This document shows, piece after piece, positions 49,996 through 50,999 of a stretch of DNA of 64,000 nucleotides. The position numbers and the translations under genes were made by a program. The stretch is from Burkholderiales bacterium RIFCSPHIGHO2_12_FULL_63_20 (GTDB taxonomy: Bacteria > Pseudomonadota > Gammaproteobacteria > Burkholderiales > Burkholderiaceae_C). The notes below the pieces were generated by a model, which was not told the DNA's origin, ran no database searches, and saw only the letters and a program-made list of their open reading frames with translations. Each line of letters starts with the position of its first letter. Within the stretch, counting starts at the first letter, position 1. The stretch lies in contig MESA01000038.1 of NCBI GenBank assembly GCA_001770775.1, positions 135,953-199,952 of the forward strand, given 5' to 3'.

Positions 49996-50023
49996 GGAAC
50001 TTCTGCCCGATTTAGCACTCTGA
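49996..50023 (+). promoter_or_regulatory. putative sigma-E (RpoE) promoter of rpoH: GGAACTT-N16-TCTGA
   Basis: GGAACTT 49996-50002, 16 nt, TCTGA 50019-50023; matches the E. coli-type sigma-E consensus. Confidence 0.65.
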
Positions 50024-50038
50024 TCCGGTGAGTGCTAA
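50012..50038. promoter_or_regulatory. CIRCE element (HrcA operator) TTAGCACTC-N9-GAGTGCTAA
   Basis: Perfect match to the CIRCE consensus, 34 bp upstream of rpoH ATG. Confidence 0.95.
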
Positions 50039-50072
50039 TATTCTTTCAGAAGGATCCACGAAAGGACCAGCC

Positions 50073-50999
50073 ATGACCCTGACGACCGCCCTTGCCCCCC
50101 GTGACCCCTGGAGTGTGGTGCCCTCGCTGGGCAACTTGGACGCGTACATCCGCTCGGTCCAGGCCATCCCCATGCTGGCGCCCGACGAGGAGCAGTCCCT
50201 GGCGCGTCGTCTGCGTGACCAGCAGGACCTGCAGGCCGCCTCCCGTCTGGTGCTCTCGCACCTGCGCTTGGTCGTGTCCATCTCCCGTCAGTACATGGGC
50301 TACGGCCTGCCGCAAGGTGACCTGATTCAGGAAGGCAACGTCGGCCTGATGAAGGCCGTCAAGCGCTTCGACCCCGATCAGGGCGTGCGCCTGGTGAGTT
50401 ACGCCATGCACTGGATCAAGGCCGAGATCCACGAATACATCCTGAAGAACTGGCGCATGGTCAAGGTGGCCACCACCAAGGCCCAACGCAAGCTGTTTTT
50501 CAACCTGCGCTCGCTCAAGCACCAGTTCAAAGGTGAAGCCGACGCCGTCAACGTTGGTCGCGCCTGCCTGTCGGAGCACGACATCCAGCGCATGGCCACG
50601 GAACTCAATGTCCGTCCGGAAGACGTCATCGAGATGGAAACCCGCATGGCGGGTGGCGATGTGGCGCTAGAGGCCCCCACCGATGACGACGGTGACGGCC
50701 CTGTGGCCCCGCTGGCCTACTTGGCCGACGAGATCCACGAGCCCACTCGCGTGATCGAGGCCCACCGCCGCGACTGGCTGGCCAGCGATGGCATCGCCTT
50801 GGCGCTCGACCAGCTCGACGCCCGCAGCCGCCGCATCGTCGAAGAGCGCTGGCTACAGGTCAACGACGACGGCTCGGGCGGCATGACGCTGCACGACCTG
50901 GCGGCCGAATACGGCGTCAGCGCGGAGCGCATCCGTCAGATCGAAGTGGCCGCCATGAAGAAAATGCGCAAGGCCCTCACCGAGGTCGCCGAAGCCTGA
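50073..50999 (+). CDS. rpoH: RNA polymerase sigma-32 factor RpoH
   Basis: SRQYMGYGLPQGDLIQEGNVGLMKAVKRFDP; RpoH box QRKLFFNLRSLK; sigma region 4 HTH. Confidence 0.96.
   Translation: MTLTTALAPRDPWSVVPSLGNLDAYIRSVQAIPMLAPDEEQSLARRLRDQQDLQAASRLVLSHLRLVVSISRQYMGYGLPQGDLIQEGNVGLMKAVKRFDPDQGVRLVSYAMHWIKAEIHEYILKNWRMVKVATTKAQRKLFFNLRSLKHQFKGEADAVNVGRACLSEHDIQRMATELNVRPEDVIEMETRMAGGDVALEAPTDDDGDGPVAPLAYLADEIHEPTRVIEAHRRDWLASDGIALALDQLDARSRRIVEERWLQVNDDGSGGMTLHDLAAEYGVSAERIRQIEVAAMKKMRKALTEVAEA

Follow-up and report, generated by a model that had tools for sequence, protein, structure and literature searches.

Can one short piece of DNA make the synthesis of sigma-32 answer to damage in two compartments of the cell? 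The question is raised by the window, the whole stretch of 64,000 nucleotides that was analysed, in which the original prediction placed a sigma-E promoter and a CIRCE operator on top of one another upstream of rpoH and proposed that sigma-E-driven transcription would be conditional on release of the repressor HrcA (an AND gate). The nearest named relatives of the source genome are Aquabacterium metagenome genomes, and the source genome encodes hrcA plus a full-scoring rpoE. In our analysis, some 70 bases of rpoH DNA are the probable meeting point of two stress signals in an Aquabacterium genome and widely across the order.

Elements of the rpoH control region

Read directly, the sequence from 49996 to 50038 is GGAACTTCTGCCCGATTTAGCACTCTGATCCGGTGAGTGCTAA. 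The features of the control region and the gene behind it are as follows.

49996-50002, + strand: sigma-E -35 element GGAACTT, exact in the sequence
50012-50038, no strand assigned: CIRCE, the HrcA operator, perfect TTAGCACTC-N9-GAGTGCTAA
50012-50017, + strand: TTAGCA, possible sigma-70 -35 element (4/6) in the CIRCE left arm, 18 bp upstream of TAATAT
50019-50023, + strand: sigma-E -10 element TCTGA, exact, spacer of 16 from the -35
50028-50031, + strand: predicted sigma-E transcription start, placed 5-8 nt after the -10
50036-50041, + strand: TAATAT, probable sigma-70 -10 element, the last 3 CIRCE bases plus TAT
50061-50066, + strand: ribosome-binding site AAAGGA, from the sequence
50073-50999, + strand: rpoH, sigma-32 (TIGR02392, PRK06596)

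The sigma-E string GGAACTT-N16-TCTGA occupies exactly 49996-50023, as had been claimed, and the CIRCE, TTAGCACTC-TGATCCGGT-GAGTGCTAA, is indeed perfect, with 0 mismatches. Both stand upstream of a genuine rpoH, whose product scores 390 bits with TIGR02392 (cut-off 323) and 408 bits with PRK06596. For the start of the gene we prefer the ATG at 50073, behind AAAGGA, because the alternative GTG at 50028 sits inside CIRCE. The two control elements interlock, with the CIRCE left arm ending in the TC of the sigma-E -10, whose TGA lies in the loop, and the sigma-E start predicted from the -10 spacing would fall within the right arm. Two other candidates for the rpoH leader were rejected: its folding is not unusual (z = 0.91), which speaks against an RNA thermometer, and it has no Rfam match to a known RNA family.

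CIRCE accompanies rpoH across Burkholderiales

Allowing up to 3 mismatches, the expectation is 0.00 CIRCEs per shuffled window; the whole 3.69 Mb genome has two, at groESL and at rpoH. We gathered rpoH upstream regions from 23 families of Burkholderiales, the family of the window (f1) and 22 others. In the first collection CIRCE (at most 3 mismatches) lies upstream of rpoH at 184 of 185 f1 loci, the exception being a truncated locus, and outside f1 it was found (at most 4 mismatches) at 71 of 73 loci. The two genomes without it, G194 and G053, are complete, and both are without HrcA. A later batch of 35 f1 loci contained two more without CIRCE, one of them (L347) cut by a contig end and the other (L334) from a 55% complete genome. 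Nearly every rpoH sampled in Burkholderiales has a CIRCE, and the genomic marks of an HrcA operator are present here: a palindrome before a heat-shock gene, hrcA in the genome, and loss of the operator where HrcA is gone. Exactly two CIRCEs were counted in 52 of 61 f1 genomes, and these are the groES and rpoH sites where coordinates were compared. HrcA thus apparently controls just groESL and rpoH here, a CIRCE regulon of two genes. One genome with 6% contamination (G464) has two rpoH-like genes (L048 and L364), both preceded by a CIRCE and both lacking a sigma-E motif.

A sigma-E motif at fixed distances from CIRCE

The window matches the sigma-E (ECF02) type of motif, GGAACTT-N16-TCTRA, exactly; the exact motif has a single site in the source genome, the one at rpoH, and similar motifs are found in relatives. 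Genome-wide there is no enrichment (6 matches at up to 1 mismatch vs 28 for a backward control), and the case for the motif therefore rests on its place and its conservation. A strict form, with at most 1 mismatch per element and a spacer of 16, was found in 54 of 177 non-redundant f1 promoters, whereas 200 shuffles that preserved the CIRCE arms gave 0.4 on average and 3 at most. The same 177 promoters gave 2 matches when reversed and 1 when read on the opposite strand.

When position is expressed as a register relative to the first CIRCE base, the f1 motifs fall mainly at -12 (-17 to -11 overall) and then at +33/34, with two farther upstream, while those outside f1 fall at -16 (21 promoters), elsewhere between -14 and -17 (8), or at -28 to -32 (12). 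The layout of the window is register -16, the commonest outside f1, and its GGAACTT recurs at -14 to -17 from CIRCE in Aquabacterium relatives (L033, L061-L065). Layouts differ by lineage: registers of -17 to -11 put the -10 inside CIRCE, and those of about -28 to -35 put CIRCE on the start site. In the +33/34 layout, seen in 20 f1 genomes, CIRCE comes before the sigma-E promoter, which HrcA would leave uncovered. The two halves of the promoter also occur jointly. At register -12 the 177 f1 promoters divide into 71 with both -35 and -10, 90 with neither, and 8 and 8 with one only; at register -16 outside f1, A occupies the loop position completing TCnnA in 23 of 26 promoters that have a -35 vs 12 of 45 that do not (p=4e-7). 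Related genomes are included in all these counts. Tree-based independent pairs for -35 and -10 gave on average 3.7 in agreement vs 0.1 against, too few for significance.

The sigma-E motif follows RpoE

If RpoE reads these promoters, the motif would be expected to share its distribution. A caller that takes a GAAC core with at most 2 mismatches and TCNNA at a spacer of 15-17 (0.7% false calls on shuffles) found the motif in 76 of 112 f1 genomes with a clear RpoE vs 0 of 14 without (one-sided Fisher p=7e-7, kinship ignored). Outside f1, a slightly looser caller found it in 40 of 61 genomes with RpoE vs 1 of 10 without (p=0.001, kinship ignored); the lone RpoE-less genome with the motif, G284, is 89% complete. 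Of the 9 genomes of family f10, 8 have lost RpoE, and none of the 9 has the motif. Pooled, with nine f1 genomes of weak RpoE score counted as RpoE-bearing, a sigma-E-like promoter stands at CIRCE in 120 of 182 RpoE-bearing genomes vs 1 of 24 RpoE-less ones (p=3e-9, kinship ignored), which leaves about one-third of the RpoE-bearing genomes without a recognisable motif near CIRCE. RpoE changes at least 9 times on the rpoH tree, and the tree-based independent pairs for RpoE and motif number 1-3 in agreement (mean 2.3) and 0 in disagreement, too few for significance. Because the Fisher counts ignore kinship and the independent pairs are so few, we call the association strong, with kinship incompletely corrected for. 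The outcome named beforehand as damaging to the original prediction, a CIRCE that is conserved without the sigma-E elements, was looked for in relatives and does not describe most RpoE-bearing lineages, since there the motif stands at set distances from CIRCE and goes with the presence of RpoE.

These data bear on two other readings of the motif. One holds that CIRCE and a sigma-70 promoter alone matter and that the sigma-E string matches by accident, as the missing genome-wide enrichment and the motif-less third of RpoE-bearing relatives might suggest. Fixed registers, the excess over shuffles, the way -35 and -10 go together and the near absence of the motif from RpoE-less genomes make this highly improbable, and we rejected a chance match on conservation, shuffles and the RpoE association. 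The other accepts a GGAAC-N16-TCnnA promoter and assigns it to an ECF sigma factor different from RpoE. The -35 elements of ECF promoters often contain GAAC, and further ECF sigma factors are present as weak matches; it is the presence of RpoE (TIGR02939), however, that the motif tracks, and the RpoE-like SigE of Bordetella reads its own rpoH promoter (PMC3490749), so that we give this reading the least credence of all.

The rpoE gene itself was searched over 300 upstream bases in 30 f1 genomes (L142, L301-L329), and no clear sigma-E motif was seen there. In f1, rpoE may thus not be autoregulated through such a motif, and it supplies no internal positive control for it. Two loci of family f8 (L021 and L250) combine a CIRCE at rpoH with RpoE in the genome, yet have no sigma-E motif near CIRCE; single sigma-E candidates lie at -99 in the first and -132 in the second.

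A candidate sigma-70 promoter fused to CIRCE

The most constant feature beyond CIRCE is the trinucleotide TAT immediately 3' of it, yielding TAATAT at 50036-50041, an element overlooked in the original prediction. NAT directly follows CIRCE in 209 of 217 f1 rpoH promoters and 59 of 71 outside f1, and in 0 of 24 groES CIRCEs (a control from which six loci, L167-L172, were left out). A mirror of TAT on the left flank occurs in just 1 of 217 promoters, and TAT is therefore not part of the CIRCE palindrome; with its absence at groES, this led us to reject a palindrome extension. TAATAT is retained in most genomes that have neither RpoE nor a sigma-E motif, and a TAnnAT -10 is kept at a fixed place relative to CIRCE, the pattern sought for a sigma-70 promoter. 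From this pattern, TAATAT is probably a sigma-70 -10 element. Its candidate partner TTAGCA is a weak -35 (4/6, spacer 18) whose conservation is inseparable from that of CIRCE.

Two proposed promoters under one operator

We propose, with a probability of roughly two in three, that a single HrcA operator controls two overlapping promoters in the rpoH region, with the logic (sigma-70 OR sigma-E) AND NOT HrcA. The first promoter would depend on sigma-E, through GGAACTT-N16-TCTGA, with its -10 and start within CIRCE; the second would probably depend on sigma-70, its -35 in the CIRCE left arm and its -10, TAATAT, spanning the end of the right arm and the TAT behind it. Once on CIRCE, HrcA would occlude RNA polymerase at both, covering the -10 and start of one and the -35 and -10 of the other; for sigma-E initiation, we infer this repression from geometry. 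Titration of GroE by misfolded cytoplasmic protein, or heat inactivation, would free the operator of HrcA, causes of release that have been demonstrated for other HrcA proteins (PMC8533110). The sigma-70 promoter would then give a basal synthesis of sigma-32 on heat shock, and the sigma-E promoter would add to rpoH output if the envelope were damaged too. As HrcA seems limited to groESL and rpoH, a feedback can be envisaged in which the sigma-32 made upon HrcA release raises groESL and the restored GroE re-arms HrcA.

The AND gate first proposed survives this analysis in part. Its two elements are both part of the rpoH region, and relatives conserve the sigma-E motif in step with RpoE, but a gate of sigma-E and HrcA is too narrow a description in view of TAATAT. 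If the operator also covers a sigma-70 promoter, HrcA release alone may permit rpoH transcription. The downstream +33/34 promoters and the f8 loci with no nearby motif likewise depart from the gate as first drawn. A different objection is that both elements work while HrcA does not gate sigma-E in practice, either because RNA polymerase carrying sigma-E displaces HrcA or because envelope stress always accompanies HrcA release; either route would produce an OR gate. A whole lineage with its sigma-E promoter at +33/34, downstream of CIRCE, and a family (f8) with RpoE and no motif near CIRCE fit such a gate, and they imply that gating is not indispensable. Outside the +33/34 lineage, however, nearly all motifs are placed with their -10 or start under bound HrcA, and we consider an OR gate, by either route, rather unlikely.

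The Roseateles/Rubrivivax-like group with the +33/34 layout should, judging by the position of its promoters, offer a natural contrast in which HrcA no longer blocks sigma-E. We examined 24 rpoH promoters of this kind (L053, L178, L072, L201 and 20 similar ones). The first ATG stands 5-8 nt beyond the sigma-E -10 in 20 of the 24; in the remaining four, the distance to a second ATG is 6-7 nt. With an ATG so near, the mRNA made from the sigma-E promoter would carry no leader, or hardly any. Some of these promoters also have an upstream ATG, served by a ribosome-binding site of its own, that overlaps the sigma-E -10.

Extended from the window to Burkholderiales as a whole, our two-promoter reading becomes one of a single short cis-element in which HrcA gates the sigma-E and sigma-70 promoters of rpoH, and in which the sigma-E promoter has moved while the logic has stayed under selection. 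The sigma-E promoter would occupy registers -16, -14, -12, about -28 to -32 and +34, with its start usually under HrcA, and would be lost with RpoE. We put the odds of this broader reading, in both its parts, at about even.

Sensing of envelope damage through sigma-E and of cytoplasmic damage through HrcA and GroE, the two chief routes by which bacteria detect damaged protein, would thereby join at the promoter of rpoH, the heat-shock master gene, and such a hub would concern a large group of environmental bacteria. If HrcA does act on groESL and rpoH alone, it would be a small, tight feedback module above sigma-32. Genomes without RpoE, without HrcA or with a moved promoter provide ready-made comparisons.

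Comparison with known systems

In the open-access literature we found no description of the overlap between a sigma-E promoter and CIRCE or of the shared TAATAT, which is weak evidence of novelty. Permina and Gelfand (2003), in their work on beta-proteobacteria, may already list a CIRCE at rpoH.

The rpoH P3 promoter of E. coli is alike in being a sigma-E promoter upstream of rpoH, where it links envelope stress to sigma-32 (PMC8103513). A search of the E. coli control genome with an HrcA model gave no match; P3 is therefore not under HrcA, unlike rpoH in the window. Bordetella bronchiseptica, also a member of Burkholderiales, has a SigE that transcribes the rpoH (fam) promoter in vitro, in a paper in which HrcA has 0 occurrences (PMC3490749). 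Geobacter sulfurreducens, like the window, has a perfect CIRCE upstream of rpoH, in its case 51 bases before the gene, with no sigma-E promoter described there (PMC545781).

A further comparison is the groESL CIRCE of the same genomes, which is the same operator and presumably binds the same repressor as that of rpoH. Upstream of this CIRCE lies a sigma-70/sigma-32-like promoter (CTTGAAA ... TATAAT); at one groES locus (L001:1470-1530), CTTGAAA-N13-CCCTATAAT ends 3 bases 5' of CIRCE and resembles sigma-32 and sigma-70 promoters simultaneously. The groESL operator has no TAnnAT on its right arm and no visible sigma-E layout, and in both respects it differs from the operator at rpoH.
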